Under the pieces are notes generated by a model. That model was not told where the DNA came from. It was given only the letters and a program-made list of their open reading frames with translations, and did no database searches. A DNA stretch of 64,000 nt from Chondrosia reniformis (lineage: Eukaryota > Porifera > Demospongiae > Chondrillida > Chondrillidae): contig OX359190.1 of the NCBI GenBank assembly GCA_947172415.1, positions 5,890,001-5,954,000 on the forward strand, read 5' to 3'. The position numbers and the translations under genes were made by a program. This document shows positions 2,126-34,700 of this stretch, in pieces; positions within the stretch are counted from its first letter, which is position 1; the number at the start of each line of letters is the position of its first letter.

Positions 2126-2195
2126 TGGGAGTCTTTGTCTTTTTCTTTATCTTGATCTTCTGTGAATCCTTGGCTCACTATGCTAAATCTAGGGG

Positions 2196-2204: not shown

Positions 2205-2380
2205 CACTATTTTGGCGCCAAAACTTGAATAAGGTGTTAACTAAGACACTTGATGAAATTTAATTTTATGAAAGGAATGTAGGTCCAATTAACTTTTATG
2301 AATTAATTATAAATCTATTAGTAATCTTGCTTGTACAGGTAAAACAGACTCAGATTAACTATAGACAAAAGTAGGACATA

Positions 2381-6800: not shown

Positions 6801-8995
6801 CACAACTAGTACATGCAATTAGTACATACAACTAGTACATCCTAACAGTACACACAAATAGTACATACAACTAGTACATACAACTAGTACAATCACCTAG
6901 AACATACAACTAGTACAATCCAACTAGGACATATAACTAGTACATACACCTACTACATACAACTAGTACATACACATATACCTAGTAATTATAAATAGTA
7001 TATACAACTAGTACATAGAACGGGTACATAAAACTAGTACACACAACTAGAAACTAGTCCATACAACTAGTATATATATAACACTAGTACATTTCACTAG
7101 TACATAAAACTAGGATTACATACAAAGAGTACATACAATTAGTACATAAAATTAGTAGGTACAACTAGTTCACACAATTAGTAACTAGTACATATAACTA
7201 GTACATACAACTAGTGTCTAGTATATACAACTAGTAACTCCCTAGTTCCTGGTATAATTAGGAATAGAACCTACAACTAGTATATAGTATTAGTAAATAC
7301 AACTAGTACATGCAACTAGTACATGCAACTAGTACATACAACTAGTACATCCTAACAGTACATGCAAATAGTACATACAACTAGTGCATACAACTTGGAC
7401 ATATAACTGGAACAAACACCTACTATATATAACTAATACATAAAAATGTAACTAGTTCAAATAAATAGTGCATCCACATAGTACATACAACTAGTACATG
7501 AAACTAGTAAATACGACTAGAAACTAGTAAATACAACTAGTTTATATATAAAATTAGTACATTTAACTAGTACATACAACTGTTATATACATCCACTTAA
7601 TAGCTACAACTAGTTCAAACAATTGGTAACTAGTACATATAATCAGTACATGCGACTAGTATATACAACTAGTACATACAACTAGTACATACAACTAGTT
7701 CATAAAACTAGTATGTAGCTTGTACAAAGAACTAGTGCATGCATCTTGTACATACAACTGGTTCATATCTAGTACATACAACTAGTACATACAACTAGTA
7801 CATACAACTAGTACATAGAATTAGTACATACAACCACCTAATACAGCTAGTACATACAACTAGTACATATACCTAGTACCTACACACATATATGGGACAT
7901 ATAAATAGTACGTACAACTATTTTATATAACTAGAACAAACAACTAGCACATACACCCAGTACATACAAATGTAAAGAGTACATATAAGTAGTAGATACA
8001 ACTAGTATATACAACTAGTACATATAAATAGTACATAAAAGTATATAGTACATACAAAATTACACAAAATTGGTACATACAACTAGTACATATAACTAGT
8101 ACATATAACTAGTACATACAACTAGTGTCTAGTATATACAAATAGTAACTCCCTAGTTCCTGGTATAATTAGGAATACAACCTACAACTAGTATATAGTA
8201 TTAGTAAATACAACTAGTACATGCAACTAGAACATGCAACTAGTACATAAAACTAGTGCATTTAACTAGTTCATACAACTATTATATACAAACAACCAGC
8301 TAAAATACAACTAGTATTTACAATTAGGTAGTACAACTACACACAACTATTAACTAGTACATATAACCAGTATATGCAACTAGTACATACGACTGGAACA
8401 TACAACTAGTTCATACAACTAGTAACAAGTACATATAACTAGTACATTCAACTAGTACATACAACTAGGACAAACAACTAGTCTATATAACTAATTCACA
8501 AACATATAACTACTACATACATATAACTGGTACTTATAAATAGTACATACCCATAGTACATACAAATAGTAGATACAAATAGTACATACATCTGCTACAT
8601 ATAACTAGCACCTACAACTAGTAAATAAAAACAGAACTACTTCATAAACTAGTGCATAAAACTAGTACATGCAATTATTACATACAACTAGTACATCCTA
8701 ACAGTACACACAAACAGAACATACAACTAGTACATACAGCTATTACATTGAACTAGAACATACAACTAGTACAAACAACTAAGACATATAGCTAATACAT
8801 GCACCTACTACCCACAACTAGTACATACACATATACCTAGTTATTATAAAAAGTACATCCAACTAGTACATAGAACGGGTACATAAAACTAGTACATACA
8901 ACTAGGAACTAGTCCATACAACTAGTATATATATAACGCTAGCACATTTAACTAGTACATAAAATTAGTAGGTACAACTAGTTCACACAACTAGT
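3865..8995 (+). repeat. 13-bp satellite, + orientation, with long-period substructure
   Basis: Forward satellite. Marker blocks (CCTAGT.CCTAGTATAA then AGAACCTA) recur near 4950, 6050, 7240 and 8155, and 7200-7330 closely repeats 8110-8240, so variants are arranged in higher-order units. From about 8300 rightward, the variant order mirrors 32.3 kb back to 31.74 kb on the other strand, so this is the outer left arm of the large inverted repeat. No gene seen; repeat peptides are interrupted by TAG roughly every 39 nt. Confidence 0.93.
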
Positions 8996-9275
8996 CTACA
9001 AGTAAATAAAAACATTTAAAAAATGAAATGAGAAGTAGGGGTGGCCGTCCCTGCAACCGTATCTATCATATCTAGAAACAATAACGAAACAAGAAAGTGA
9101 TCATATGGTAAGGCTAACATTGCAGAAGTGGCATACTGAAACTTAACTATGCACATCACTTCTATGTTTGGGCGCATCATGGATATACTAGAAGTAGGGA
9201 TCGATGCGCCCAAACATAGAAGTGATGTGCATAGTCCCTACTTCCCTACTTAGAGAGTACTACCGTACTCTCTGA
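8996..9275 (-). mobile_element. Foldback element E1 (internally deleted partner of E2)
   Basis: A 280-bp non-satellite insertion. Read on the minus strand it starts TC, then a short hairpin (AGAGAGTAC/GTACTCTCT, loop GGTA), and ends CTTGTAG. It carries a perfect 33-bp inverted repeat (9146-9178 with 9203-9235, 24-nt loop). E2 at 30915-31735 is the mirrored copy, 821 bp long; E1 lacks about 550 bp of it, with AGTAGG at both edges of the gap. A 65-residue open frame at 9016-9213 is part of the hairpin arm and does not look coding. Confidence 0.8.
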
Positions 9276-10491
9276 TAGCTACTACAAAAAACTTGTGCCC
9301 ATATCTTGTACATACAACTTGTTCATATCTAGTACACACAACTAGTACATACAACTAGTACATCCAACTAGTACATAAAATTAGTACATACAACTACCAC
9401 ACACAACTTGTACATACAACTAGCACCTACAACTAGTGAATATAACTAGTATTACTACATCCAACAAGTACATACAACTAGTCCATACAACTAGTACATA
9501 CAATTAGTACATTAAACTAGTTCAAACAAACAACACAAGTAGTATAGAGAACGACTTCCTTCCTAGTTCCTAGTATAACTTGTACCAGAACCTACAACTA
9601 ATTCAAAAAACTAGTACATACAACTAGTACATACAACTAGTACAAAGCTAGTACCTACAACTAAAATAAACATATAACTAGTATAAACATGCAACTAGTA
9701 CACAGAACGTGTACATACAATTAGCAGGTACAACTAGTACTTTCAACTAGTACATATAACAAGTACACACACCTACTACATATAACAAGTACACACACCT
9801 ACTACATATAACAAGTACACACACCTATCACATATAACTAATGCATAAACATATAACTAGTATATGTGAATAGTACATGCACATAATACATACAACTAGT
9901 ATACATATAAAACTAGTAGATTTAACTAGTACATACAACTGGTATATACATACAACTAGTACAGACAACTAGTACATACAAGTAGTACATAAAATTTTTA
10001 GGTAAAACTAGTTCATAGAATTAGTAACTAGTAAATATAATTACTACATGTGACTAGTACATACAACTAGTACATACAACTAGTGCATGCAACTAGTACA
10101 TGCAACAAGAACATATAACTAGTACACACAAGTATACCTAGTAAATGTAAATAGTACATACAACTAGTACATACAGCTAGGGCTACAACTAGTACATATA
10201 ACTAGTGCAAAGACATATAAATAGAACATACAAATAGTAAATACAACTAGTAGGTACAACTAGTACATGCAACTAGTATATACATACAATTAGTACACAG
10301 AACCTGTACATACAATTACTACATGCAACTACTACATACAACTAATACCCCCAACTAGTACCTAAAACTAGTAAATATAGCTAGTTCTAGTACATACAAC
10401 TAGTACGTATATACAACTAGTACTTTCAACTAGTACTTTCAACTAGTACATATAACTAGTACACGCACCTACTACATATAACTAATATATT
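9276..10491 (+). repeat. 13-bp satellite, + orientation
   Basis: Forward satellite between E1 and B1, mirrored by 29998-30914. It contains a short tandem array of a 26-bp unit (about 9755-9838, near three copies). The last bases before B1 are the same as the complement of the bases after B2. No gene seen. Confidence 0.93.
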
Positions 10492-10979
10492 AAACAAGTC
10501 TTTCGAGATTAAAAACTCGTGGAGTGCCAGGCGCCCCTAAGTAAACTCGAACTACTTGGCATGTTCCCATAGATAGCCGGTTAACTGATTTCCGATCGAC
10601 TCTTGTTGGTCATCAACTTTTCAAGGCCATATCTCGTAGAAAACGTTTTTCGCAAGCTTCACTTTACATAGTATTAGTAAGGGTGGTTTTTAAGTCCATT
10701 TCGTTCGTTCAATGTTCTACGCTAAGGAAGAGAAAGCTAATTTTAAGCTAGAAAACGGAAGCTAGCCGAACGTCCGCCATTTTTTGACAGATATATATAT
10801 ATATATATATAATAAAACTTTGGTAATTGAAGCTCTGTCTTCTCTTCTTACGCCTTTTGTTCATATTTTTACTTGTCCATGTGTAGGAATTAGGAGTGTT
10901 TGTTGCGATCATTATGAGAATAAAGCCTTGTTGAGCTTCAGGAACACGAATTTTCTAAGATATTCCCTTTCCTGTATTA

Positions 10980-11007
10980 CTGATGAAGACTTCCGGGTTG
11001 AAACGTC
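10980..11007 (+). ncRNA. Degenerate hammerhead-like core in B1
   Basis: CTGATGA at 10980-10986, GAAAC at 11000-11004 and GTC at 11005-11007. Stem II would be A-U, G-U, an A-G mismatch and C-G; stem III has no loop, so a monomer could hardly fold. Stem I is poorly paired. Perfect 17-bp inverted arms (10918-10934 and 11037-11053) enclose it. It may be a decayed dimeric-type hammerhead of a Penelope-like relative or a chance match. The mirrored copy is in B2 around 29480-29510. Confidence 0.25.
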
Positions 11008-11643
11008 CAGAACTAGTAAATTTATGTTACTGATGTTCAACAAGGCTTTATTCTTATCCATGTGTGTATGTTTCCCATGTGTACAGTAGAATCTCATAAC
11101 AAAATTGCTCATAGTGAATGTCTTAAGTATAGTGAGGCTAATTACACTCAAGTACACTACACAGTGAAAGTCACTGGCAATATTAAAATTACTATCAAAT
11201 ACTACACAGTACAAGTTACAAATTTAAGAGGGCCAAGTGACTATACAATATTAAAATTACAATCAAGTACTAGCTATACATGCAGTGCAAGTTACAAATG
11301 TAAAGAGATCCAAGTGACCCCTAGGATAATCAGTATTTTAAACAGCACAAGACTTTAGTCACACTAGTACTGTTGCAGGTTTTGAAATCCTCAACTACTG
11401 CATAGAGAGTAGTAGTTGATACAGATCATCCAATTGCGAGGTAGAACACATGGCCTACGAATTACCTATTCACACCTTAGTATAGACTGAAGATGATGCA
11501 TCTGCATGCCATATATCAACAAAGGCTCCAGTATTAAAGGGGTCTCAGCTAATAGCCACAGCAGATTTGATTTTCCTTGTGAGGGAGCTAAGAACACCGA
11601 TGGTTGGTTGCATGCATTTGCATAATCAACAGGGTTAGAAACT

Positions 11644-11727
11644 ATTTTGTAACTTGTACACAAGGGACATAAAAGGTCAAGGCCTTTATATACGTATATG
11701 ATGTCCCTTGTGTACAAGTTACAAAAT
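11644..11727. repeat. Perfect 27-bp hairpin in B1
   Basis: Arms 11644-11670 and 11701-11727 are exact reverse complements, with a 30-nt loop. The same hairpin is at 28756-28839 in B2. It sits just inside the inverted 75-85-bp segment, so the pair may mark a head-to-head join of two element ends. Confidence 0.9.
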
Positions 11728-11903
11728 GGTATTGGTATGATATGGCTACACATGGACAAGTAAAAATATGAACAAAAAGCGTAAGAAGAGAAGACAGAGC
11801 TTCATTTACCAAAGTTTTATTAAGGTCGACTAAACAAATTTCTTTTGCATCAATATACGGACAATTCTGCCTCAAACTTAACGGAAACGTACACAAATAC
11901 ACT

Positions 11904-12083
11904 TTATCTAACCTTCGCTACAACTCGTTTATTCCGTAGCTCCTTCTCGTAGTAGAGCGTCGACTTGTCATAGCCGTTCTCGAAAGGATGATCTTCTTTT
12001 GCAACGAGCCATGACGTTTTCCCAACGTCACATGATAATCCATTAAATATGTACCGAGCAACATACGAGGTGTTGGTGACGCA
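11904..12083 (-). CDS. Unidentified 59-codon open frame in B1
   Basis: A frame open between an in-frame TAG (12084-12086) and a TAA (11904-11906), without a start codon of its own. The composition looks protein-like (for instance TSWLVAKEDHPFENGYDK and YYEKELRNKRVVAKVR), unlike the low-complexity frames around it. A pyrimidine-AG stretch directly precedes it, so an exon is possible. I do not recognise the family. B2 has the same frame at 28400-28579, but the two are recent duplicates, so this is not evidence of selection. Confidence 0.2.
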   Translation of the reverse strand, partial: CVTNTSYVARYIFNGLSCDVGKTSWLVAKEDHPFENGYDKSTLYYEKELRNKRVVAKVR

Positions 12084-12633
12084 CTAGGGAAACATCATAA
12101 TACATCACCAGATTCCGCAATCGTAAACTTGCATTCTTCATTATATCTTGATTGTGTTGCAATTTTAATTAAGCAAAACTTCGCCAGACGTTTGTCATAC
12201 ACATGTACCATGATATATATCGGTTTCACAGTGATCTGATCAATTGATAATTTTTATTAATATAACACTTGGTTTCAATATAAATTTCACATAGGTTTTC
12301 TATAGTCCTATGGCATTTTATATACAGACTTTGTCCTCCGTTTTCTACCAAACCAAGACTTAAATAAAAAATCCCTTAATTAATCCTTTTATACCCTAAA
12401 CTTTATGATACTATGCCCATTCTCTTGCTAGGTCCTTTCCTGGAGTCATATGAACTATTTATATTATATTATATTATATTATATTATATTATTTATTTAT
12501 TTATATTAGATTACCATAGTATATTGTAAATTGTACTGTATATATATATATATATATGTATACAAGACTACGAACAGGAAACCATACGTTAACATAATTT
12601 TTGACAATAATATAGGGGAGCCTCCGGCGCCCC

Positions 12634-13605
12634 AAAAATGTAACTAGTTCAAACAAATCGTGCATCCACATAGTCCACACAACTAGTACAAAAAACTAGT
12701 AAATACAACTAGACACTAGTACATACAATTGGTATATACATACAACTGGTGTATACATTCAACTAGTTCATACAACTAGTCACTAGTACATATAACTAGT
12801 ACATGCGACTAGTATATACAACTAGTACATACAACTAGTATCTACTACATAGAACTAGTACCTTCTTAGCCCCTAGTATAACTAGTACAAGAACCTACCA
12901 CTTGTACATACAACTAGTACATACAACTAGTACATACAACCAGTACATAGCTAGTACATACAACCAGTATATACATACAACTAGTACATAGTACATACTA
13001 GTATTTGCAATTAGTACATATAACTAGTACACACATCTACAACAAATAACTAATACATAAAAATATAAATAGTACATATAAATAGTACATAAACATAGTA
13101 CATACAAGTAGTTCATACAACTACTAGTACATAGAACGAGTAAATAAAACTAGGACCTATAACTAGTAAATACCTACTACATATAATTAGTACATAAATA
13201 TATAACTAGAACATATGAATAGTGCATCCATATAGTATATATAACTAGTACATAAAACTAGTACATGCAACTAGAAACTAGTACATACAACTATTATATA
13301 CAAACAACAAGTTCACACAACTAGTATTTACAACTAGTATTTACAATTAGGTCATACAACTAGTTCACACAACTATCAACTAGTACATATAACCAGTACA
13401 TGTAAATTCGTGGGTACAACTAGTTCATAAAATTAGTAACTAGTAAATATAATTAGTACATGTGACTAGTACATACAACTAGTACATACAACTAGTGCAT
13501 TCAACTAGTACATACAACTAGGACATATAACTAGTACATAAACCTACTACATATAACTAGAACATACACCTATACCTAGTAAATGTAAATAGTACATAGT
13601 ATTTT
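12634..13605 (+). repeat. 13-bp satellite, + orientation
   Basis: Forward satellite between B1 and A2. Its first ~130 bp mirror the bases left of B2 (27856 back to about 27690), after which the right arm is flipped. 12840-13400 repeats the higher-order unit of 1-720. No gene seen. Confidence 0.93.
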
Positions 13606-13621
13606 TCTTTTTCTGTTTGCC

Positions 13622-14223
13622 TATGAGTATGAGTTTATGAAAGGACTACTTAAGGATAACATCACCCTAGCTATTAAATTTTCCAATACTTATAGGTATA
13701 TTGATGACCTTTTATGTATTAACAACAAGGATTTTGAACTGTCAATTAGTGATATTTACCCCAAAGAACTTATTCTTAAAAAGACAAATACCAGCCCTAA
13801 AAAATCCCCCTTTTTAGACTTAGATATAACCATTACTAACAATCAATTTATCACTAAAGTATATGATAAGTGAGAGGACTTTAACTTTGATATAGTAAAC
13901 TTCCCCCATTTAGATAGTAATATTCCTAATACCCCAGCCTATGGTGTCTTTATTTCACAACTAATTAGGTATTCCAGAATATGTAGTGACTTCTCCAGGC
14001 TAAAAGTTTGCAGGTATGCAATAGGCTTATTAAGCAGGGTTACAAATACTTTAAGCTCAAATCAACCTTTAAAACCTTCCTATCCCGGCAGCCTCTAGTT
14101 AGAATCAAGTATAAGCAAAAAGTAGCTAGTATGCTTAAGGACTGTCTTGTGTTACCCCATATTGTGTTACCCCACCTCCAAAGAAATGTTACTACTAGAA
14201 GACCTAAGGGTAGACTTACGTAA
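13622..14223 (+). pseudogene. Reverse transcriptase relic of A2
   Basis: Corresponds to the last two thirds of the A1 RT. The motif C region (YRYIDD) is kept near 13693-13710. Two lesions break it: an in-frame TGA at 13872-13874 where A1 has an arginine codon (CGA to TGA, a CpG-type change), and a 7-bp deletion near 13999 between two CAG triplets, which shifts the frame. The second open piece (14008-14223) ends in the same KGRLT as A1. The copy cannot supply RT. Confidence 0.85.
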
Positions 14224-14399
14224 TATGTCCTACTTTTGTCTATAGTTATGCTGAGTCTGTTTTACCTGTACAAGCAAGTTTACTAATAGATTTATAATTA
14301 ATTCATAAAAGTTAATTGGACCTACATTCCTTTCATAAAATTAAATTTCATCAAGTGTCTTAGTTAACACATTATTTAACTTTTGTCGCCAAAATAGTG

Positions 14400-14408
14400 T
14401 ATATAAGG
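14400..14408 (+). promoter_or_regulatory. TATA-like box in element A2
   Basis: TATATAAGG, about 70 nt upstream of the hammerhead-like motif, as in A1. The E2F-like palindrome upstream is degraded (TTTTGTCGCCAAAA). Confidence 0.35.
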
Positions 14409-14478
14409 CCCCTAGATTTAGCATAGTGAGCCAAGGATTCACAGAAGATCAAGATAAAGAAAAAGACAAAGACTCCCA

Positions 14479-14524
14479 GGATCACTGATGAAGGGTGGAA
14501 TTCCCAGAAACGGCTGTCTGACCC
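14479..14524 (+). ncRNA. Hammerhead-like ribozyme candidate in A2
   Basis: CTGATGA at 14485-14491; stem II GGG/CCC with an A-A mismatch at its base; GAAAC at 14507-14511; stem III AC/GT with a GGCT loop; GTC at 14516-14518 with cleavage expected after C14518. Stem I pairs 14519-14524 with 14479-14484 apart from one C-A. All core nucleotides are kept although the RT in this copy is dead. Activity is unproven. Confidence 0.55.
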
Positions 14525-14673
14525 AGTGGAGAAGAAGATGAAAGAAGGGAAAAGAAGGAAGAAGAGACTCCTGTATCTTCATCTAAAGCTCTCTTTAGGT
14601 TTAGTTCCCCTATAGGCTCTTTTTATAGAATAGGCATATAGCATGTAGGAAAATGGTATATTAGATTTTTCAT

Positions 14674-15237
14674 ACAACTAGTACATACAGCTAGCGCATA
14701 CAACTAGTACATATAACTAGTTAACACAAATAAATAATACATACAAATAGTAAATATAACTAGTACCTACAACTAGTACGTACAACTAGTATCTAGTAGA
14801 TACAACTAGAACATGCAACTACTACATAGAACTAATACATACAACTAGTACCTAAAACTAGTAAAAATAGCTAATTCTCGTTCATGCAACTAGTATATAC
14901 ATACAACTAGAACTTTCAATAGTATATATAGCTAGTACACACACCTACTACATAAAACAAATACATAAAAATATAACTTTTTCAAATAAATAGTGCATCC
15001 ACAGAGTACATAAACCTAGTAAATAAAACTAGTAAATACAACTAGAAACTAGTACACACAACTAGTATATATGTAAAATTAGTACATTTAACTAGTACAC
15101 ACATCTGGTATATACATACAACTAGTACATACAACTAGTACATTATACTAGTTCATAAAACTAGTATATTGCTAGTACAAAGAACTAGTGCATACATCTT
15201 CTACATACAACTGGTTGGTATCTATTACAAAGAACTA
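14674..15237 (+). repeat. 13-bp satellite, + orientation
   Basis: Forward satellite between A2 and P1, ending at the TA target site of P1 (15236-15237). No gene seen. Confidence 0.93.
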
Positions 15238-15745
15238 CAGTGCAGTCCACTTAATTCGAATCCGTTTTTGACTTAATTTCACCTATTTCGAATAGAACTC
15301 CGGTTCCCTGTATAGTCCCAGAATATCAATTTCTTTGGGAATATTTGTTTGCTACGTAGAGAATACGGAAGTATTTCAACACAAATAAGCAAGCTCATAG
15401 TTATTAAGGAGGTAATCACACTTTTACCGGTTAAGAATTTGAGCTAAATTGTCATTAATCATTCTCAGTACAGTGTTATTCTCTAGGTATGCAACGTTCA
15501 CTGTACCAATCACTTATTCTGGAACGAAAACTAGAGATTATCCATCTCGTAGAAAACGCTCCATCTGGAAGGAAAAAAGGGACATTGCTACTACTACTTG
15601 GCTGCATAATCTTCTCTTTTTCATTATATTTCAAATCTATATTTGGTGTTTAGACATCACTTTGCTGTTTTGTACATAAACCTAATAATTCAAAATTCCT
15701 GTTATTTCAAATTCCCTAGAGATTCGAATTAGGTGGACTGCCCTG
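15238..15745. mobile_element. pogo/Tigger-like TIR element P1
   Basis: A 508-bp element flanked by TA on both sides (15236-15237 and 15746-15747), the target duplication of Tc1/mariner-pogo elements. The terminal inverted repeats are about 24 bp, starting CAGTGCAGTCCAC on the left and, read inward from the right, CAGGGCAGTCCAC; both contain AATTCGAA, typical of pogo/Tigger ends. No transposase motif (DDE/D) is present, so it is non-autonomous. P2 (24531-25038) has the same length in mirrored position and orientation. Confidence 0.88.
15449..15679 (+). CDS. 76-codon open frame inside P1, doubtful
   Basis: An ATG-initiated frame with a hydrophobic C-terminal stretch (LLFFIIFQIYIWCL). The mirrored frame in P2 is the same length, differing mainly in one short patch near residues 32-45. 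It matches no transposase that I recognise. With two copies produced by the same duplication, conservation is weak evidence; it may be a chance frame. Confidence 0.15.
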   Translation: MSLIILSTVLFSRYATFTVPITYSGTKTRDYPSRRKRSIWKEKRDIATTTWLHNLLFFIIFQIYIWCLDITLLFCT

Positions 15746-16471
15746 TAGTACATACAACTAGTACATAGAATTAGTAAATACAACCAGCTAATACAGCTAG
15801 TACATACAAGTAGTACATATACCTAGTACATTCACATATATATAGTACATATAAATAGTACGTACAACTAGTATATATAACTAGTACAAACAACTAGTAC
15901 ATACACCCATTACACACAAACGTAACGAATACATATAAGTAGTACATACAACTAGTACATATAAATAGTACACACAACTAGTACATACAACAATAACACA
16001 AAACTGGTACATACAACTAATATATATAACTAGTACATGTACAACTAGTACATACAACTAGTGTCTAGTATATACAACTAGTACCTCCCTAGTACCTAGC
16101 ATAATTAGGACTAGACATTACAACTAGTATATACTACTAGTACATACAACTAGTCCATACAACTATTACATATGACTAGTACATATACATCTAACTCCTA
16201 CATAAATTTAGTATATACAACTAGTACAGAAAACTAGTTCACACAAAGAATCAAGTAGTTCATAGAACTAGTTCCTTCCTAGTACCTAGTATAACTTGTA
16301 TTAGAACCTAATACTAGTTCGAATATCTAGTACATACAGCTGGTACATACAATTAGGCAATAGTACATTCAACTAGTACAAATAACTACTACATTCGACT
16401 AGTACATACAAATGGTATTGAGTACATACAACTAGTAAATACAACTAGAGCATACAATTAGTACACACAAA
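15746..16471 (+). repeat. 13-bp satellite, + orientation
   Basis: Forward satellite between P1 and the LINE. It mirrors 24530 back to about 23790 closely, including the rarer runs AATACAGCTAGTACATAC and CAGCTAATACAG. It also resembles the 390-bp unit amplified at 52471-54810. No gene seen. Confidence 0.93.
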
Positions 16472-17851
16472 TTCTTTCCTGAATACTGGAAGTGTGCTTG
16501 GGTTAAGCCACTCTACAAAGGCGGTGATCGTGTCTCCCCCACGAATTGCCGACCCACTCCTCTGCTTCCAGTCTGCAGTAAACTTCTAGTAAGGTGTGTC
16601 CAGGAGCAGTTTTCTTCTCACCTCATACAAAACGACCTTCTCTTCCCTTATAAATCTGGATTTCGGCCCAAGCATTCTACCCAAACGCTTCTTCTTCACT
16701 GCTTGGATGACTGGTAAAAGGCTCTGGACAGAAGACAGTTCATCGGGGTTGTGTTTCTTGACATCTCCAAAGCTTTTGACACTGTTAACCATGATCTTCT
16801 TTTGTCTAAGCTTTCCCAACTTGGTTTCTCCTCGTCTACAGTTGCTTGGTTTAAGTCTTATCTTTCCGATCGTTGCCAGGTTACTCGTGTCAGTGATTCA
16901 TTCTCCTCTCCTGGTTTTCCCACAACTGGTGTTCCCCAAGGCTCTGTGCTTGGTCCTTCTCACTTCACTCCCTTTATCAATGACCAGCCTTCAGTCCTGC
17001 CTGCTGATTCTGTTGTTCTCTTTGCTGATGACACTGCCATCTACATCACGAGTAGCAATCTTGCTTTTTTAAACTCTTCACTTCAACAGTGTCTAGATGC
17101 AACCAGCCTGTGGATGGCCAGCAATGGACTGCAACTGAATGCAAGCAATACAAAATGTATGCTCTTTCACTCTAGTAGAAGAAAAATTGAGACTGGCTTG
17201 GACGTTCTTGTTGATGGTGTAACTGTTGATCAGGTACGAGTGTTCAAGTCTCTTGGTGTGCTTATAAACGATACCCTAACTTGGAGTGATCATGTTGACA
17301 TGATTTGTAGAAAAGTAAGCTGTCGTCTCAACCTTCTTCGTAGGCTCTCTTGGTTTCTTCCTCACTCTCTCCTCCTCACTTATCTTAAATCATACATCCT
17401 TCCCCACTTTGACTATTGTGATGTCGTCTGGTCTGGCTGTACTCAAGATGAATCTTGCCGCTTGGAATCGCTGCTGAACTTTGGGTGCAAGATTGTGCTT
17501 CATAGGCGTCGTGACTCTTCTTCCACTGCTGCTCTTTAAGAACTTGGATTAACGACTCTCACCTTGAGAAGAAAACTTCACATGGCTCAGTGTATGTTTC
17601 GCAGCCTATCCTCCCAGGCTCCACCTTATCTGTCTCGGCTCTCCTCTTATGTTTCTTGCCACCATAACACTCGCTCCTCTTCCACTTCCCAACTTAATCT
17701 TCCCTTGGTCAGGTCTTCATTCGGACAGAGGACATTCAGTTTTGCCGGTGCTTCTCTCTGGCGCAGTCTACCTACAGCCATTCGTGCAACACCTAACCTC
17801 AGCCTCAACTATTTTACGGAACTATGTAAACATTTATATTCTAATGCATGA
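16472..17851 (+). pseudogene. LINE reverse transcriptase relic
   Basis: A single frame runs through, with two stop codons: TAA at 16715-16717 (after CLDDW) and TAA at 17537-17539. Recognisable parts in order: the fingers region with PLYKGGD, NCRPTPLLPVCSK and GFRPKHSTQ; motif A FLDISKAFD (from 16751); GVPQGSVLGP; the catalytic FADD at 17021-17032; then the thumb and a C-terminal region with FAGASLWRSLP and a final stop at 17849-17851. This enzyme would carry out target-primed reverse transcription. The endonuclease domain is missing through 5' truncation. The sequence is of the CR1/jockey-like group of LINEs; the exact clade is not determined. Confidence 0.88.
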
Positions 17852-18018
17852 GCGACAATTTGTATTATGTAACAATATTAACACAACCGAATTGACAATT
17901 TTATTTTATTTATTTATTTATTATTTATTTATTGTACATATGGTTTTGTACTGGGTGCCTTTGTAGTAGCCTCAGGCTATGGGCCTCCCCAGTTTAAATA
18001 AGATTTCCTGATATCCTG
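16472..18018 (+). mobile_element. 5'-truncated LINE (non-LTR retrotransposon)
   Basis: About 1.55 kb of GC-richer sequence interrupting the satellite. It starts within an RT frame and ends in a 3' UTR with TTTATT runs, a small hairpin (AGCCTCAGGCT), and a short repeated tail (TTTCCTGATATCCTG) rather than poly-A, as in CR1/L2-type LINEs. The mirrored site in the right arm (near 23770) is empty: AACACAAATAGTAAA-like satellite runs through. The insertion therefore came after the arms were copied, or was lost on the right. No clear long target duplication; AAA is shared at the edges. Confidence 0.85.
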
Positions 18019-24530: not shown

Positions 24531-25038
24531 CAGGGCAGTCCACCTAATTCGAATCTCTAGGGAATTTGAAATAACAGGAATTTTGAATTATTAGGTTTAT
24601 GTACATAACAGCAAAGTGATGTCTAAACACCAAATATAGATTTGAAATACAATGAAAAAGAGAAGATTATGCAGCCAAGTAGTAGTAGCAATGTCCTTTC
24701 TTTCCTTCCAGATGGAGTGTTGTCCACAAGATGCATAATCTCTAGTTTTCGTTCCAGAATAAGTGATTGGTACAGTGAACGTTGCATACCTAGAGAATAA
24801 CACTGTACTGAGAATGATTAATGACAATTTAGCTAAATTTCTTAACCGTTAAAAGTGTGATTACCTCCTTAATAACTATGAGCTTGCTTATTTGTGTTGA
24901 AATACTTCCGTATTCTCTACGTAGCAAACTAAAATTCCCAAAGAAATTGATATTCTGGGACTATACAGGGAACCGGAGTTCTATTCGAAATAGGTGAAAT
25001 TTCGTCAAAAACGGATTCGAATTAAGTGGACTGCACTG
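24531..25038. mobile_element. pogo/Tigger-like TIR element P2
   Basis: A 508-bp mirrored copy of P1, with TA at 24529-24530 and 25039-25040 and the same 24-bp inverted ends. It confirms that the element was in place before the inverted duplication. No transposase. Confidence 0.88.
24597..24827 (-). CDS. 76-codon open frame inside P2, doubtful
   Basis: The counterpart of the frame in P1, same start and length. Changes are clustered (DYASCGQHSIWKERKD where P1 has DYPSRRKRSIWKEKRD). Function unknown; it may be fortuitous. Confidence 0.15.
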   Translation of the reverse strand: MSLIILSTVLFSRYATFTVPITYSGTKTRDYASCGQHSIWKERKDIATTTWLHNLLFFIVFQIYIWCLDITLLLCT

Positions 25039-26894
25039 TAGTTGTATGTAATAGATATCAACCAGTTGTATGTAGAAAATGTATGCACTAGTTCTTTGTA
25101 CTAGCAATATACTATTTTTATGAAGTTAGTTTAATGTACTACTTGTATGTACTAGTTGTATGTATATACCAGATGTATGTACTAGTTAAAAGTACTAATT
25201 TTTTATATATACTAGTTGTGTGTACTAGTTTCTAGTTGGATTTACTAGTTTTATATACTAGTTTTATGTACTCTGTGGATTCACTGTATCTTTGAACAAG
25301 TTATATTTTTATGTATTAGTTTTATGTAATAGGTGTGTGTACTAGTTATATGTACTATTGAAAGTTCTAGTTGTATGTACTAGTTGTATGAACGAGAACT
25401 AGCTATATTTACTAGTTTTAGGTACTAGTTGTATGTATTAGTTCTATGTAGTAGTTGCATGTGCTAATTGTATACACAAGTTCTGTGAACTAGTTGTATG
25501 TATATGCTAGTTGTATGTACCAGCTATGTACTAGTTGTATGTTCTAGTTGTATCTACTAGATACTAGTTGTACGTACTAGTTGTAGGTACTAGTTATATT
25601 TACTATTTGTATGTACTATTTATTTGTGTGTACTAGTTATATGTACTAGTTGTATGCGCTAGCTGTATGTACTAGTTGTATGTACTATTTAAATTTACTA
25701 GGTATACGTGTATGTTCTAGTTACATGTAGTACATTTATGTACTAGTTATATGTCCTAGTTGTATGTACTAGTTGAATGCACTAGTTGTATGTACTAGTT
25801 GTGTGTCACATCACATATACTAATTATATTTACTAGTTACTAATTTTATAAACTAGTTGTACCCACTAATTTACATGTACTGGTTATATGTACTAGTTAA
25901 TAGTTGTGTGAACTAGTTGTATGACCTAATTGTAAATACTAGTTGTAAATACTAGTTGTGTGAACTTGTTGTTTGTATATAATAGTTTACGTACTAGTTT
26001 CTAGTTGCATGTACTAGTTTAAGTACTAGTTATATATACTATATGGATGCACTATTCATATGTTCTAGTTATATATTTATGTACTAATTATATGTAGTAG
26101 GTATTTACTAGTTATAGGTCCTAGTTTTATGTACTCGTTCTATGTACTAGTAGTTGTATGAACTACTTGTATGTACTATGTTTATGTACTATTTATATGT
26201 ACAAGTTATATTTTTATGTATTAGTTATTTGTTGTAGATGTGTGTACTAGTTATATGTACTAATTGCAAATACTAGTTGTATGTACTGGTTGTATGTACT
26301 AGCTATGTACTGGTTGTATGTTCTAGTTGTATGTACTAGTTGTATGTACAAGTGGTAGGTTCTTGTACTAGTTATACTAGGGGCTAAGAAGGTACTAGTT
26401 CTATGTAGTAGGTACTAGTTCTATGTAGTTGATACTAGTTGTGTGTACTATTTATAATTATTAGGTAAAAGTCTATATACTAGTTATATGTAGTAGTTGT
26501 ATGTACTGTTTATAAGTCCCTAATTTTTTTTCCTAGTTGTATGTAGTAGTTATGTACTAGTTGATTATACGAGTTGTACATTCTAGTATTATGTACTCAT
26601 TCTGTGAGCTAGTTGTATATCCTAGTTTCTAGTTGTATGTACTAGTTGTATTTACTACTTTTATTTACTAGTTGTATTTACTAGTTGTATGTACTATTTA
26701 TAATTACAATGGATGTTTATTTACTAGTTATATGTAGTAGGTGTATGTACTAGTTATATGTCCTAGCTGTATGTCGTAGTTGTATGGACTAGTTGAATGT
26801 ACTAGTTGTATGTACTAATTGTATGTAATAGTTGTGGGTATTATTTGGTATGTACTAGTTTTACATAATAGTTGTATGTATATAGTAGTTGTTA
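25039..26894 (-). repeat. 13-bp satellite, - orientation
   Basis: Complement-oriented satellite between P2 and a flipped block. Markers with CTAGTTATACTAGG recur near 26380. No gene seen. Confidence 0.93.
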
Positions 26895-27687
26895 ATATAA
26901 GCTATGTACTAGTGACTAGTACATATAACTGGTACATGCGACAAGTATATACAACTAGTAGATACAACTAGTATATACAACTAGTTCATAAAACTTGTAT
27001 ATAGCTAGTCCAGAGAACTAGTGCATACATCTTATACATACAAATGGTTCATATCTAGTACATACAACTAGTACATACAATTATTACATAGAATTAGTAT
27101 ATACAACCAGCTGATACAGCTAGTACATAAGAGTAGTACATATCCCTAGTTCTTACACATATATATAGTACATATATATAGTACGTACAACTAGTATATA
27201 CTACTAGCACATGCAACTAGAAGATGCAACTAGTACATATAAATAGTACATATAACTATTAAATATGACTAGTACATACACATATAATTAGTACATAAAT
27301 ATAGTACAAAAAAACTAGTACAGAAAACTAGTCCACACAAACAATCAAGTAATTTATAGAACTAATTCATTCCTAGTACCTAGTATAACTTGTACTATAA
27401 CCTAAAACTTGTTCAAACATCTAGTACATACAACTAGTACATACAATTAGGCAATAGCACATACAACTAGTACATATAGTTAGTCCTTAAAAATAGTACA
27501 TAACCTACTATATATAACTAGTACATACTAAAATAACACACTACTCATACATTCAACTAGTACAAATAACTACTACAATCGACTAGTACATACAAATAGT
27601 ATTGAGTACATACAACTAGTAACTACTACTAGTTCATAGAACGAGTACATAATACTATATAGAACATACAACTTAAATATACATCTA
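26895..27687 (+). repeat. Flipped satellite block, + orientation
   Basis: A 0.8-kb block with the satellite in the opposite orientation to both neighbours. Its first bases (CACTAGTACATATAACTGG on the + strand near the junction) resemble the left-arm sequence near 12780, as expected if part of the right arm inverted in place. No gene seen. Confidence 0.88.
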
Positions 27688-27856
27688 GTTGTATGAACTA
27701 GTTGTACCTATTAATTTTATGTACTAGTTGAATGTATGTACCAGTTGTATGTATATACCAATTGTATGTACTAGTTTCTAGTTGTATTTACTAGTGTTTT
27801 GTACTAGTTGTGTGGACTATGTGGATGCACGATTTGTTTGAACTAGTTACATTTTT
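27688..27856 (-). repeat. 13-bp satellite, - orientation
   Basis: A short complement-oriented stretch that mirrors 12634-12780 and abuts B2. Confidence 0.9.
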
Positions 27857-28399
27857 GGGGCGCCGCAGGTTCCCCTATATTATTTTAAGAAATTATGTTA
27901 ACGTATGGTTTCCTGTTCGTAGTCTTGTATACATATATATATATATGCAGTACAAGTTACAATATACTAAGGTAATTAACATAAATAAATAAATAATATA
28001 ATATAATATAATATAATATAAATAATCATATGACTCCAGGAAAGGACCTAGCAAGAGAATGGGCATAGTATCATAAAGTTTAGGGTATAAAACTCATTTT
28101 TAATTAAAGGATTTTTTATTTAGTTCTCGGTTTGGTAGAAAACGGAGGACAAAGTCTGTATATAAAATGCCATAGGACTATAGAAAACCTATGTGAAATT
28201 TATATTGAAACCAAGTGTTATATTAATAAAAATTATCAATTGATCAGATCACTGTGAAACCGATATATATCATGGTACATGTGTATGACAAACGTCTGGC
28301 GAAGTTTTGCTTAATTAAAATTGCAACACAATCAAGATATAATGAAGAATGCAAGTTTACGATTGCGGAATCTGGTGATGTATTATGATGTTTCCCTAG

Positions 28400-28579
28400 T
28401 GCGTCACCAACACCTCGTATGTTGCTCGGTACATATTTAATGGATTATCATGTGACGTTGGGAAAACGTCATGGCTCGTTGCAAAAGAAGATCATCCTTT
28501 CGAGAACGGCTATGACAAGTCGACGCTCTACTACGAGAAGGAGCTACGGAATAAACGAGTTGTAGCGAAGGTTAGATAA
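28400..28579 (+). CDS. Unidentified 59-codon open frame in B2
   Basis: The same frame as 11904-12083, bounded by TAG at 28397-28399 and TAA at 28577-28579, no start codon. It encodes a lysine/glutamate-rich peptide ending KRVVAKVR. It may be an exon or a fragment of a captured gene; the family is not recognised. Confidence 0.2.
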   Translation, partial: CVTNTSYVARYIFNGLSCDVGKTSWLVAKEDHPFENGYDKSTLYYEKELRNKRVVAKVR

Positions 28580-28755
28580 AGTGTATTTGTGTACGTTTCC
28601 GTTAAGTTTGAGGCAGAATTGTCCGTATATTGATGCAAAAGAAATTTGTTTAGTCGACCTTAATAAAACTTTGGTAAATGAAGCTCTGTCTTCTCTTCTT
28701 ACGCTTTTTGTTCATATTTTTACTTGTCCATGTGTAGCCATATCATACCAATACC

Positions 28756-28839
28756 ATTTTGTAACTTGTACACAAGGGACATCATATACGTATATAAAGG
28801 CCTTGACCTTTTATGTCCCTTGTGTACAAGTTACAAAAT
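28756..28839. repeat. Perfect 27-bp hairpin in B2
   Basis: Arms 28756-28782 and 28813-28839 are exact reverse complements around a 30-nt loop; same structure as in B1. Confidence 0.9.
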
Positions 28840-29997
28840 AGTTTCTAACCCTGTTGATTATGCAAATGCATGCAACCAACCATCGGTGTTCTTAGCTCCC
28901 TCACAAGGAAAATCAAATCTGCTGTGGCTATTAGCTGAGACCCCTTTAATACTGGAGCCTTTGTTGATATATGGCATGCAGATGCATCATCTTCAGTCTA
29001 TACTAAGGTGTGAAAAGGTAATTGGTAGGCCATGTGTTCTACCTTGCAATTGGATGATCTGTATCAACTACTACTCTCTATGCAGTAGTTGAGGATTTCA
29101 AAACCTGCAACAGTACTAGTGTGACTAAAGTCTTGTGCTGTTTAAAATACTGATTATCCTAGGGGTCACTTGGATCTCTTTAAATTTGTAACTTGCACTG
29201 CATGTGTAGCTAGTACTTGATTGTAATTTTAATATTGTATAGTCACTTGGCCCTCTTAAATTTGTAACTTGTACTGTGTAGTATTTGATAGTAATTTTAA
29301 TATTGCCAGTGACTTTCACTGTGTAGTGTACTTGAGTGTAATTAGCCTCACTATACTTAAGACATTCACTATGAGCAATTTTGTTATGAGATTCTACTGT
29401 ACACATGGGAAACATACACACATGGATAAGAATAAAGCCTTGTTGAACATCAATAACATAAATTTACTAGTTCTGGACGTTTCAACCCGGAAGTCTTCAT
29501 CAGTAATACAGGAAAGGGAATATCTTAGTAAATTCGTGTTCCTGAAGCTCAACAAGGCTTTATTCTCATAATGATCGCAACAAACACTCCTAATTCCTAC
29601 ACATGGACAAGTAAAATATGAACAAAAAGCGTAAGAAGAGAAGACAGAGCTTCAATTACCAAAGTTTTTAATATTATATATATATATATATATATATCTG
29701 TCAAAAAATGGCGGACGTTCGGCTAGCTTCCGTTTTCTAGCTTAAAATTAGCTTTCTCTTCCTTAGCGTAGAACATCGAACGAACGAAATGGACTTAAAA
29801 ACCACCCTTACTAATACTATGTAAAGTGAAGCTTGCGAAAAACGTTTTCTACGAGATATGGCCTTGAAAAATTGACGACCAACAAGAGTCGATCGGAAAT
29901 CAGTTAACCGGCTATCTATGGGAACATGCCAAGTAGTTCGAGTTTACTTAGGGGCGCCTGGCGCTCCACGAGTTTTTAAACTCGAAAGACTTGTTTA

Positions 29998-30914
29998 ATA
30001 TATTAGTTATATGTAATAGGTGCGTGTACTAGTTATATGTACTAGTTGAAAGTACTAGTTGAAAGTACTAGTTGTATATACGTACTAGTTGTATGTACTA
30101 GAACTAGCTATATTTACTAGTTTTAGGTACTAGTTGGGGGTATTAGTTGTATGTAGTAGTTGCATGTAGTAATTGTATGTACAGGTTCTGTGTACTAATT
30201 GTATGTATATACTAGTTGCATGTACTAGTTGTACCTACTAGTTGTATTTACTATTTGTATGTTCTATTTATATGTCTTTGCACTAGTTATATGTACTAGT
30301 TGTAGCCCTAGCTGTATGTACTAGTTGTATGTACTATTTACATTTACTAGGTATACTTGTGTGTACTAGTTATATGTTCTTGTTGCATGTACTAGTTGCA
30401 TGCACTAGTTGTATGTACTAGTCGTATGTACTAGTCACATGTAGTAATTATATTTACTAGTTACTAATTCTATGAACCAGTTTTACCTAAAAATTTTATG
30501 TACTACTTGTATGTACTAGTTGTCTGTACTAGTTGTATGTGGTAGGTGTGTGTACTTTGAATTAGTTGTAGGTTCTGGTACAAGTTATACTAGGAACTAG
30601 GAAGGAAGTCGTTCTCTATACTACTTGTGTTGTTTGTTTGAACTAGTTTTATGTACTAATTGTATGTACTAGTTGTATGGACTAGTTGTATGTACTTGTT
30701 GGATGTACTAATACTAGTTATATTCACTAGTTGTAGGTGCTAGTTGTATGTACAAGTTGTGTGTGGTAGTTGTATGTACTAATTTTATGTACTAGTTGGA
30801 TGTACTAGTTGTATGTTCTAGTTGTGTGTAATAGATATGAAAAATCGAAGATATATGAAGATATGAACAAGTTGTATGTAAAAAGATATGGGCACAAGCT
30901 TTTTGTAGTAGCTA
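29998..30914 (-). repeat. 13-bp satellite, - orientation
   Basis: Mirrors 9276-10491. The junction at the B2 side is the exact complement of the B1 side (AATATATTAG). No gene seen. Confidence 0.93.
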
Positions 30915-31735
30915 TCAGAGAGTACAGTAGTACTCTCTAAGTAGGAATGGCCCGAAAAAATGGATGCCGTATTCAATATATTACGGGTTAACACCTTATA
31001 AGTAGGCAGCTAATGCGTTTTTACCTTTTTTAAACTCATAATGTGTCTTTTTTGTACGATTTCAATTGAGGGAAGCTGTTTTCATGAGCGCATAAAGGCT
31101 CCAAGTTTGTAAATCGGTTTCTGGCCTACTTCCGGTTTTCCTCATTTTCTTCTTCTTCTTATTATTATTCTTTCTTTTATTTCACGCTATTGCATAAACG
31201 CGCTTGTAGATAAATACATTTTAGGGGCATATCGTCTAAAAGTTTTAGAAACTAGGGAATAGCTACCTATCTGTCTTCAAACGATTTGTGCAAAGACGGT
31301 TTTCTGTGTCGCATAAGGAAATTGGAACCTTTTGTCGCCATTTTCCAATTGGGAGTTCTTGGTCATCTCCTGATTTCCTTCGACTACGACGTTTCGAGTT
31401 TTCGCCAAAAAATTACAAAACTAATTTTAATAATTATATAACATTACAGAAAAAAGGAATACAAGTAAATAAAAACATTTAAAAAATGATATGAGAAGTA
31501 GGGATGGCAGTCTATGTTTGGGCGCATCGATCCCTACTTCTAGTATATCCATGAGGCGCCCAAACATAGAAGCGATGTTCATAGGTAAGTTTCAGTATGC
31601 CACTTCTGCAATGTTAGCCTTACCATATGATCCCTTTCTTGTTTCGTTACTTTTTCTAGATGTGATAGATACTGTTGCAGGGACTGCCATCCCTACTTCT
31701 CATTTCATTTTTTAAATGTTTTTATTTACTTGTAG
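30915..31735 (+). mobile_element. Foldback element E2 (longer copy)
   Basis: An 821-bp insertion starting TC, followed by a 22-nt hairpin (30917-30938, arms AGAGAGTAC/GTACTCTCT). It has a central AT-rich part with CTTCTT/ATTATT runs (about 31140-31175) and ends in a large foldback: 50-bp arms 31463-31512 and 31682-31731 with about one mismatch, plus an inner 15-bp hairpin (31511-31525 with 31556-31570). Element F (47572-48332) has the same layout with different sequence, so E and F are one structural family. Open frames at 31288-31482 and 31491-31715 show no protein signature. Confidence 0.8.
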
Positions 31736-34700
31736 ACTAGTTGTGTGAACTAGTTGTACCTACTAATTTTATGTACTAGTTGTATGTACTCTTTGTATGT
31801 ATATCCTAGTTTTATGTACTAGTTAAATGTACTAGTGTTATATATATACTAGTTGTATGGACTAGTTTCTAGTTGTATGTACTACTTTTATGTACCCGTT
31901 CTATGTACTAGTTGGATGTACTTTTTATAATAACTAGGTATATGTGTATTTACTAGTTGTGTGTACTAGGTGCATGTACTAGTTATATGTCCTAGTTGTT
32001 TGTACTAGTTGTATGTTCTAGTTCAATGTACTAGTTTTATGTACTAGTTGTATGTTCTGTTTGTGTGTACTGTTAGGATGTACTAGTTGTATGTACTAAT
32101 TGCTTGTACTAGTTGTATGCACTAGTTTTATGAAGTAGTTCTATTTTTATTTACTAGTTGTAGGTACTAGTTAAATGTAGCAGATGTATGTACTATTTGT
32201 ATGTACTATTTGTATGTACTATGTGTATGTACTATTTATAAGTACCAGTTATATGTATGTAGTAGTTATATGTTTGTGAAATAGTTATATAGACTAGTTG
32301 TATGGTCTAGCTGTATGTACTAGTTGTATGTACTATTTATAATTACAAGGTATATGTGTATTTACTAGTTATATGTAGTTGGTGGATGTACAAGTTATAT
32401 ATCCTAGTTGTTTGTCCTAGTTGTATGTACTAGTTGAATGTACTAGTTATATGTACTTGTTACTAGTTGTATGAACTAGTTGTATGTTCCAGTCGTATGT
32501 ACTAGTTGCATATACTGGTTATATGTACCAGTTAATAGTTGTGTGTAGTTGTACGACCAAATTGTAAATACTAGTTGTATTTTGGCTGGTTGTTTGTATA
32601 TAATAGTTGTATGAACTAGTTAAATGCACTAGTTTTATGTACTAGTTATATGTACTATATGGATGCACTATTTATATGTTCTAGTTATATACTTATGTAC
32701 TAATTTTATGTGGTAGGTGTTTACTAGTTATAGGTCCTAGTTTTATGTACTCGGTCTATGTACTAGTAGTTGCATGAACTACTTGTATGTACTATGTTTA
32801 TGTACTAGTTATATATTTCTGTTTTAGTTATACCTGGTAGATGTGTGTTCTAGTTGTATGTACTAATTGCTTGTACTAGTTGTATGCACTAGTTTTATGA
32901 AGTAGTTCTATTTTTATTTACTAGTTGTAGGTACTAGTTAAATGTAGCAGATGTATGTACTATTTGTATGTACTATTTGTATGTACTATGTGTATGTACT
33001 ATTTATAAGTACCAGTTATATGTATGTAGTAGTTATATGTTTGTGAAATAGTTATATAGACTAGTTGTATGGTCTAGCTGTATGTACTAGTTGTATGTAC
33101 TATTTATAATTACAAGGTATATGTGTATTTACTAGTTATATGTAGTTGGTGGATGTACAAGTTATATATCCTAGTTGTTTGTCCTAGTTGTATGTACTAG
33201 TTGAATGTACTAGTTATATGTACTTGTTACTAGTTGTATGAACTAGTTGTATGTTCCAGTCGTATGTACTAGTTGCATATACTGGTTATATGTACCAGTT
33301 AATAGTTGTGTGTAGTTGTACGACCAAATTGTAAATACTAGTTGTATTTTGGCTGGTTGTTTGTATATAATAGTTGTATGAACTAGTTAAATGCACTAGT
33401 TTTATGTACTAGTTATATGTACTATATGGATGCACTATTTATATGTTCTAGTTATATACTTATGTACTAATTTTATGTGGTAGGTGTTTACTAGTTATAG
33501 GTCCTAGTTTTATGTACTCGGTCTATGTACTAGTAGTTGCATGAACTACTTGTATGTACTATGTTTATGTACTAGTTATATATTTCTGTTTTAGTTATAC
33601 CTGGTAGATGTGTGTTCTAGTTGTATGTACTAATTATGATTATTAGGTAAAAGTGTATGTACCATTTATATGTCCTAGTTCTTTTTTCCTAGTTGTGTGT
33701 AGTGGTTATGTACTAGTTGAATATACAAGTTGGACGTTCTAGTATTATGTACTCATTCTGTGAGCTAGTTGTATATACTACTTTCTAGTTGTGTGTTCTA
33801 GTTGTGTGTACTAATCTTATGTACTAGTTTTATGTACTAGTTGTATGTACTATTTATAATTACAATTTATGTGTAGTTACTAGTTATATGTAGTAGGTGT
33901 ATGTACTAATTATATGTCCTAGCTGTTAGTCGTAGTTGTATGGACTAGTTGAATGTACTAGTTGTATGTACTAAATAGTATGTACTAGTTGTGGGTATTA
34001 TTTGGTATGTACTAATTGTATGCAAAGCTGTATGTACTAGTTGTATGTACTATTCATAAATACTAGGTATATGTGTATTTACTAGTTATATGTAGTAGAT
34101 GTATGTACTAGTTATATGTCCTAGTTGTTTGTCCTAGTTGTATGGACTAGTTGAATGTACTAGTTGTATGTACTAATTGTATGTGTTAGGTGTGTGTACT
34201 ATTTGGTATGTACTAGTTGTATGTCCAATTTGTATGTACTAGTTATACACCAGTAGTTTGTAATAGTTGTACATATATACTAGTTGTTAATATTAGCTAT
34301 TTACTAGATGTATATTCAAGTTGTATGTTCTATATAGTATTATGTACTCGTTCTATGAACTAGTAGTATTTACTAGTTTCTAGTTATAGGTACTAGTTGT
34401 AAGTACTAGTTGTATGTTCTATGTGCATGTACCAGTTGTAGATTCTTGTACTAGTTATATATGTACTAGGTAGGTTTAATTTGTATGTACTAGATACTTG
34501 TTGCATGTACCAGTTGTATGTACTAGTCAATAGTTGTAAAGTTTAGTTGAATGTACTATTTGTATTTACTAGTTGTATGTACAAGATGTATGCACTAGTT
34601 CTTGGTACAACTATATACTGGTTTTATGAACTAGTTGTATGTACTAGTTGTATGTACTAGTTGTATATAGTAGTCGCATGTACTGGTTATATGGACTAGT

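Follow-up and report, generated by a model that had tools for sequence, protein, structure and literature searches.

Large inverted repeats with a spacer are known from the Y chromosomes of apes, where these palindromes undergo arm-to-arm conversion and their arms are near-identical throughout. The closest kind to the structure described here is that of the macro-dyad satellites of Tribolium madens, T. freemani, and T. castaneum (PMC13081366). In the accessible parts of that report, the inversion sites of the macro-dyad symmetries in T. madens satellites are conserved at 98-99%, and such symmetries are said, in 2026, to be documented exclusively in Tribolium; elsewhere, in the accessible full-text literature, the term "macro-dyad" was met only in a citation of the same paper. 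Another related arrangement is that of the centromeres of Candida tropicalis and fission yeast, where, according to the part of the source available, a core of a few kilobases is flanked by inverted repeats and is similar on several chromosomes (PMC4741521). No report of satellite palindromes in sponges was found in searches of the literature that combined sponges with centromeres and satellites or tandem repeats. Here, we describe such a palindrome in the sponge Chondrosia reniformis. It lies in a window of 64,000 nucleotides, the whole stretch of DNA analysed, on chromosome 2 (C2:5890001-5954000; C with a number denotes a chromosome) of the odChoReni1.1 genome (117,379,552 bases in 15 contigs). 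The palindrome very probably had a single origin, after which it spread as a unit to several places on chromosomes 2, 3, 4, and 6.

Most of the window is made up of a degenerate 13-bp satellite, CTAGTACATACAA, which is mostly forward at 3.9-22.1 kb and mostly reverse at 22.2-46 kb, a short forward stretch at 26.9-27.7 kb interrupting the latter. An original prediction, made from the letters alone, had placed mirrored arms around a 2.7-kb loop; the check that it had itself proposed, self-alignment of the window, bears it out, as do unique inverted 18-mers. On the minus strand, the self-alignment gave four long inverted blocks that are 91-98% identical and share one axis: 9948-12772 against 30540-27718 (98%), 12791-13598 against 26456-25679 (93%), 14671-16471 against 25613-23788 (91%), and 18019-19518 against 23758-22310 (91%). 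Some 3,590 of the 5,146 unique inverted 18-mer pairs fall in bins around this axis (sums 39,000-43,499), and a second set (772 pairs) consists of two Penelope-like copies. Strand also switches at ~0.9, ~3.86, and ~46.2 kb; no enriched bin corresponds to these positions among the 25 listed, so, by the 18-mer test, they are not mirror axes. The predicted axis edges, 19.49 and 22.19 kb, are correct. The predicted extent, 8300 to 32300, is indeed mirrored but proved too small: collinear unique inverted 18-mers reach ~5.0 kb and ~37 kb, and they resume at 0-0.8 kb against 42.6-43.4 kb.

With gap columns dropped, the arms are 93.5-98.5% identical in five blocks over 9.3-19.5 kb: from the outside in, 95.8% (9.3-9.95 kb), 98.5% (satellite and E), 96.4%, 93.5%, and 96.0% (18.0-19.5 kb). 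The outer mirror identities are 90.1% (0-0.8 kb), 87.4% (5.0-7.6 kb), and 88.5% (P). The difference of a few percent that had been claimed for the arms is thus real, against a mean of 73.4% (maximum 86.7%) for 40 random 1.4-kb forward/reverse satellite pairs, drawn from the window itself with on-axis pairs not excluded. Three mirrored pairs of insertions, termed P, E, and B (Table 1), had also been claimed and were recovered at 98% for E (10500-12640 against 29988-27850), 97% for B, and 95% for the outer part of P, with junction letters that agree by eye; the outer 226 bases of P are matched at 31736-31511, and the inner end of the right P lies at ~30.86-30.95 kb. The arms are mirror images as far as P, E, and B go, but not with regard to insertions totalling ~4.4 kb that have no mirror partner. 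These comprise, in the left arm, the Penelope-like fragment and the LINE and, in the right arm, the insert that interrupts P and a 1.26-kb unmatched stretch that contains an inverted satellite segment (the R insert).

Table 1. Coordinates of the palindrome and of the elements inserted in it (positions within the 64,000-nucleotide window).
Feature	Positions	Strand	Remarks
Left arm	5000..19489	+	Forward CTAGTACATACAA satellite with P1, E1, B1, LINE, and Penelope-like fragment
P1	8995..9285	+	Insertion
E1	10497..12646	+	Insertion, read by eye; nested smaller element
Penelope-like fragment	13606..14670	+	Left arm; name presumed
B1	15255..15745	+	Short element with terminal inverted repeats CAGT..., TA-flanked, read by eye
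LINE fragment	16472..18018	+	Reverse transcriptase PF00078; left-side mark
Loop (spacer)	19490..22189	+	Asymmetric forward satellite, 2.7 kb
Axis junction (breakpoint)	22186..22200	.	Forward satellite meets inverted copy
Right arm	22190..37200	-	Inverted copy of left arm with P2, E2, and B2
B2	24531..25021	-	Mirror partner of B1
R insert	26906..27690	+	Forward satellite segment in right arm; right-side mark
E2	27850..29990	-	Mirror partner of E1
P2	30860..31740	-	Mirror partner of P1, interrupted by insert

The window contains one of many copies of this palindrome, a fact that is invisible from its own sequence. At most 40 candidates were scored in each junction search, and the counts that follow are lower bounds. 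A 2.9-kb query across the axis gave at least seven other full-length matches at 91-93% (one on C6, four on C3, and two on C4; 11 of 1,891 candidates scored). The axis junction itself (query 22125-22265) occurs at 17 places with at least 132 of the 141 query bases covered and an identity of 93-100%, among the best 40 of 1,232 candidates; two of these places are on C2, seven on C3, five on C4, and three on C6. Three of the five C4 sites sit in a 7.65-kb tandem, and two of these tandem copies are 100% identical over the arm blocks d, c, b, and a2 (see below), which points to a very recent local amplification. The repeated 7.65-kb block, which lies at C4:3966000-3992000, comprises the axis, the start of the right arm, and B.

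The junctions of the inserted elements recur in the same manner: that of E has at least 40 matches of at least 207 of 221 bases (best 40 of 2,209 candidates), that of B at least 40 matches (best 40 of 623), and that of the LINE 16 places at 156 of 161 bases or more (best 40 of 1,860). The E sites listed form 15 adjacent convergent +/- pairs, 14.7-33.6 kb apart (two on C2, ten on C3, two on C4, and one on C6), a number reached in none of 10,000 shuffles of strand within chromosomes (maximum 12). There is exactly one LINE in 13 of these 15 pairs, no full-length one in the other two, and never two. The axis is intact in 12 of the 15; the pairs without it, at C3:3.34, 3.51, and 4.04 Mb, are each 14.7 kb long, and in the one that was fetched, the C3:3.342-Mb copy, nearly the whole loop has been lost. 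The idea of several palindrome families with different axes was rejected, the copies at C2:5.979 and C6:4.534 Mb carrying the same loop and that at C3:3.342 Mb being a loop-deleted derivative. On C3, certain pairs recur as neighbours, at 3.29/3.34, at 3.46/3.51, and, in reverse order, at 4.04/4.09 Mb, an arrangement that fits the segmental duplication of blocks of ~67-70 kb or more.

An assembly artefact, in which two haplotypes were falsely joined or a read was a fold-back chimera, might be suspected in such DNA: the satellite is hard to assemble, the curation of this assembly fixed 20 misjoins or missing joins according to the accessible part of the genome paper (PMC12181767), and a gap of 200 N is close to the C6 copy. 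However, the axis is present on four chromosomes with private differences, which makes a false join of haplotypes very unlikely. Moreover, the two arms are set apart by a divergence of several percent and by arm-specific insertions, and the HiFi reads, as given in the same part of that paper, average ~12.9 kb (10.31 Gb / 0.80 M, PMC12181767), which exceeds the combined length of the loop and the interval to the LINE. An artefact is scarcely credible.

Another explanation would be transposition of the block as a giant mobile element bounded by long terminal inverted repeats, since the same palindrome is found at many sites, on several chromosomes, and in both orientations. This is highly improbable. 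The window has no transposase-like frame of at least 110 amino acids (introns ignored; two frames scanned with Pfam); the frames of this size are the LINE reverse transcriptase and a frame that overlaps it, the Penelope-like fragment, and one of 122 amino acids in E. The stretches compared, short of a systematic search for ends, revealed no sharp end that the copies share. The copies lie, moreover, within satellite, and the C3 neighbour pairs recur together, as segmental duplication would give.

The order of events can be approached through the insertions in the six copies that were read over at least 40 kb, namely the window and five others (three from C3, one from C6, and one from C4). In all six, the LINE is confined to the left arm and the full-length R insert to the right; the left arm of the C4 copy also has a partial match to the R insert (88%, 293 bases). 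Every copy has B on both sides. The window and the three C3 copies likewise have E and P in each arm; in the C6 copy, the left arm has no P and only a 580-base remnant of E, and the fetched C4 stretch ends inside the right E, before P. The insert inside the right P (31000-31500 tested) is shared by the window with the three C3 copies read, always in the right arm, and the right P of C6 is uninterrupted. The Penelope-like fragment is in the window copy alone. Since P, E, and B are common to both arms while the LINE is restricted to the left and the R insert to the right, the simplest order would be that P, E, and B entered first, that the inversion followed, that the LINE and the R insert came after it, and that dispersal and then private changes came last. 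The first of the two explanations offered in the original prediction, a single event that copied an already decorated block in inverted orientation, is strongly supported by the presence of one axis junction at 17 places; further evidence for it comes from chromosome 14.

At C14:3.854-3.857 Mb, an uninverted relative shows 94.8% identity to the left-arm edge and 82% to the loop as far as window position 22186. Past this position, its satellite stays forward, with no inversion, whereas the palindromes switch there to the left arm, which ends at 19489, in inverse complement. Its greater divergence and its straight continuity suggest that C14 preserves the ancestral, uninverted state. The E and B junctions on C14 are also more diverged (86% for E and 89-92% for B among the matches listed), and none of the listed C14 E sites has a convergent partner; E and B are thus probably older than the fold-back that made the palindrome. 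Elsewhere on this chromosome, at C14:2720801-2724400, loop-like satellite is followed by satellite like that of block c in the same orientation, an order hinting at an older tandem higher-order repeat as the source of the arms. At the join itself, the overlap is 0-2 bases, as judged by eye, and the axis has two forms: a near 7-base repeat is present in five of the nine aligned rows (the window, C2:5.979, and the three C4 tandem copies) and absent from the other four (C3:3.29, 3.46, 3.93, and 4.09).

The LINE and the axis point the same way in 11 of the 12 pairs that have both marks. In the remaining one, the 3.23-Mb copy of C4 (C4:3.219-3.242 Mb), the LINE is on the plus strand and the axis on the minus strand; the LINE-bearing stretch is 97% identical to the left arm of the window, and the adjoining loop lies inverted. 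The simplest cause of this inversion would be crossing-over between the arms.

A scheme that brings these observations together would start from a forward 13-bp satellite array that already carried P, E, and B. One fold-back event, probably by replication template switching or end joining with the overlap of 0-2 bases, would have joined this array, 2.7 kb past the edge of the left arm, to a copy of that arm in inverted orientation, and the outcome would be a palindrome with an asymmetric 2.7-kb spacer. The LINE would then have entered the left arm, and the inverted satellite segment the right one, before the marked block was copied to chromosomes 2, 3, 4, and 6, perhaps by segmental duplication or by ectopic exchange between satellite domains. 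Later changes would include the loss of the loop on chromosome 3, its inversion by crossing-over between the arms on chromosome 4, and arm-to-arm conversion. No function is needed to explain the palindrome.

The second explanation in the original prediction was that the arms are kept alike by gene conversion. As a rival to the fold-back of a decorated block, this would mean that continuous arm-to-arm conversion maintains the likeness and that the common insertions were copied from one arm to the other. Trees were made from arm blocks recut from the best matches, with 18 arms for blocks c and d, 13 for b, and 10 each for a1 and a2. In block c (nine left and nine right arms), all the right arms form one clade (0.991), and in block a2 (four left and six right arms), all the left arms do so (0.999), left arms of a2 being 97.9% identical to one another against 96.7% between left and right. 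In these two blocks, arms of the same copy are not more alike than arms of different copies; in a1 and parts of d, some copies show the opposite. Certain observations do favour conversion: in block a1, the two arms of the window group together, as do those of C3:3.462 Mb; the left arm of the latter copy has the same 173-bp deletion in E that is otherwise confined to the C3 right arms; and the right arms of C6:4.718 and C4:3.989 are left-like near the loop. The pairing in a1 and the deletion in both arms of C3:3.462 show local conversion. However, a left-only LINE and a right-only insert have survived unerased in all six copies, and one axis junction common to 17 places is not explained by conversion between arms. 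Conversion is real but looks local; as the main cause, it is an unlikely explanation and largely refuted.

Several points nevertheless weigh against the reading in which the palindrome arose once and its arms then diverged by side, among them the lower-bound nature of the junction counts. Arms sort by side in block d only with exceptions (C6:4.718 and C4:3.989 right arms are left-like, and the left arms of C3:3.342 and C3:3.462 lie among right arms); we attribute these mainly to conversion and partly, perhaps, to the cutting of the blocks. Block b is poorly resolved and does not sort by side. Neither does a1, where left and right arms pair by copy in the window (0.957) and in C3:3.462 (0.773), with within-copy identities of 99.0% and 99.8%, respectively. 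Mean identities between copies (left-left/right-right/left-right) are 97.0/94.2/94.6 in d, 97.4/94.7/94.7 in c, 94.3/97.4/95.3 in b, 97.9/97.9/96.7 in a2, and 97.5/98.3/97.9 in a1, and do not favour side everywhere, partly because the C3 right arms sit on long branches; these arms and C3:3.462 L keep such branches even in the recut trees. Ten of the 40 E sites are unpaired (three on C14, four on C6, and one each on C2, C3, and C4), and in the C3:4.09-Mb pair, the E-B distance is longer on the LINE side, which it is not in the remaining 10 pairs (of 11) that give both distances. Finally, as to the extent of the copies, the best match between the window and C6 stops beside the 200-N gap (C6:4706001-4706200, outside the axis), and on the right side, identity with C3:4.09 Mb falls to 78% beyond ~30 kb. 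On the left side, the window is matched at high identity until close to where the fetched C3 and C4 stretches end.

The satellite in which the copies lie is widespread. Allowing at most one mismatch, a 30-mer of it has 9,775 forward and 10,141 reverse occurrences in the genome, and the same 30-mer read backwards, as a control, has none. Exact matches to a 56-mer number 98 and fall on all 14 chromosomes (once only on C2), at internal positions that span up to ~2 Mb per chromosome. Extrapolated from the density in the window (83 matches in 64 kb), the satellite would total, very roughly, 10-15 Mb. Because it lies mainly in one internal domain per chromosome, the domain is probably (peri)centromeric, which would give a view of a likely sponge centromere region. 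The genome paper describes an assembly of 117.37 Mb in 14 chromosomes plus the mitochondrion, and its main text, where accessible, has neither the word "centromere" nor the word "satellite" (PMC12181767). A clear outlier is a short, very regular satellite array at C3:7003513-7003620 (7.00 Mb), far from the main satellite domain of that chromosome.

This distribution raises the question of a working centromere core, in which the loop would be the kinetochore platform and the arms would help to load the centromeric histone. In favour of it are the mainly single internal domain of the satellite on each of the 14 chromosomes and, in the accessible part of the source, the importance of the inverted repeats around the core of C. 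tropicalis for new CENP-A loading (PMC4741521). However, the axis was found on four of the 14 chromosomes, seven times on C3 and on none of ten others (best 40 of 1,232 candidates), rather than once on every one. The loop is ordinary satellite, not a non-repetitive mid core, and it is missing in at least one fetched copy. Its conservation, moreover, is no higher than that of the flanking arms: among the eight loop-bearing copies, identity over aligned columns is 96.9-98.7% for the loop and 97.1-99.3% and 95.9-99.1% for the left and right flanks (the BLAST loop identities to the window, 92-93%, count gaps, and the aligned columns were used instead). The loop as a centromere core was rejected as a poor fit to both the distribution and the loss of the loop; by analogy, a centromere role is possible but unsupported, and we regard it as improbable.

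C. tropicalis, as described in the part of the source available, differs in several ways (PMC4741521). There, the core is non-repetitive, whereas the sponge loop is the forward 13-bp satellite; each of the seven centromeres has one core, whereas one sponge chromosome has many copies; and left and right repeats of the same centromere are the most alike, whereas in blocks c and a2 the sponge arms group by side. In the sponge, within-copy arm identity ranges from 91 to 99.8% by block.

The sponge palindrome resembles those of the ape Y chromosomes in being a large inverted repeat with a spacer and arm-to-arm conversion, and differs from them in that no gene content was found in it, its arms are 91-99.8% identical by block, and it has been copied to several chromosomes.

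By its anatomy, it belongs with the macro-dyad kind of Tribolium: stretches of a single satellite, from kilobases to tens of kilobases in length, lie in opposite orientations, and the inversion site is conserved. In Tribolium, too, according to the accessible parts of the report (PMC13081366), palindrome-like arrays in this size range occupy putative (peri)centromeric domains, and inversion sites are highly conserved among many copies (17 sites in the sponge, at 93-100%). The satellite itself is on all 14 chromosomes, against four for this axis (best 40 of 1,232 candidates). The differences, on the same reading of the source, are that the sponge monomer is 13 bp as against an element of ~110 bp in T. 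madens; that, unlike in Tribolium, the sponge palindrome has a 2.7-kb asymmetric spacer; and that 17 axis sites were found as against thousands of inversion sites in T. madens. In addition, in the sponge, transposon insertions give an order of events and an uninverted relative survives.

These insertions serve here as time stamps for how satellite palindromes arise and spread. With an order of events, the breakpoint of the uninverted relative, and derived copies, the origin and fate of satellite palindromes become directly testable in an early-branching animal. A broader proposal, in line with what has been proposed for Tribolium, is that large satellite palindromes belong to the architecture of sponge centromeres and that the fold-back blocks are favoured by selection, or tolerated, for their effect on the shape of (peri)centromeric chromatin. 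We consider this doubtful; if true, palindromic centromere architecture would have arisen independently in two very distant animal lineages.

Searches of the window for Rfam families (at the gathering threshold) and for tRNAs gave no matches. A second copy of the fragment that we take to be Penelope-like lies on the minus strand at 1939-3001 and is 98% identical to the first over 1,056 bases; the region around it, 1766-3037, has an open frame of 218 amino acids with no Pfam match. As a pair mirrored around the present axis, the two copies were rejected, because the second mirrors another point and the fragment is absent from the other five copies read. The smaller element nested in E1 (10813-11835, ~10.81-11.84 kb) has long terminal inverted repeats and contains the 173-bp stretch that is absent from the right arms on chromosome 3. 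Within the loop, there is a perfect 124-bp tandem duplication at 20816-21068.

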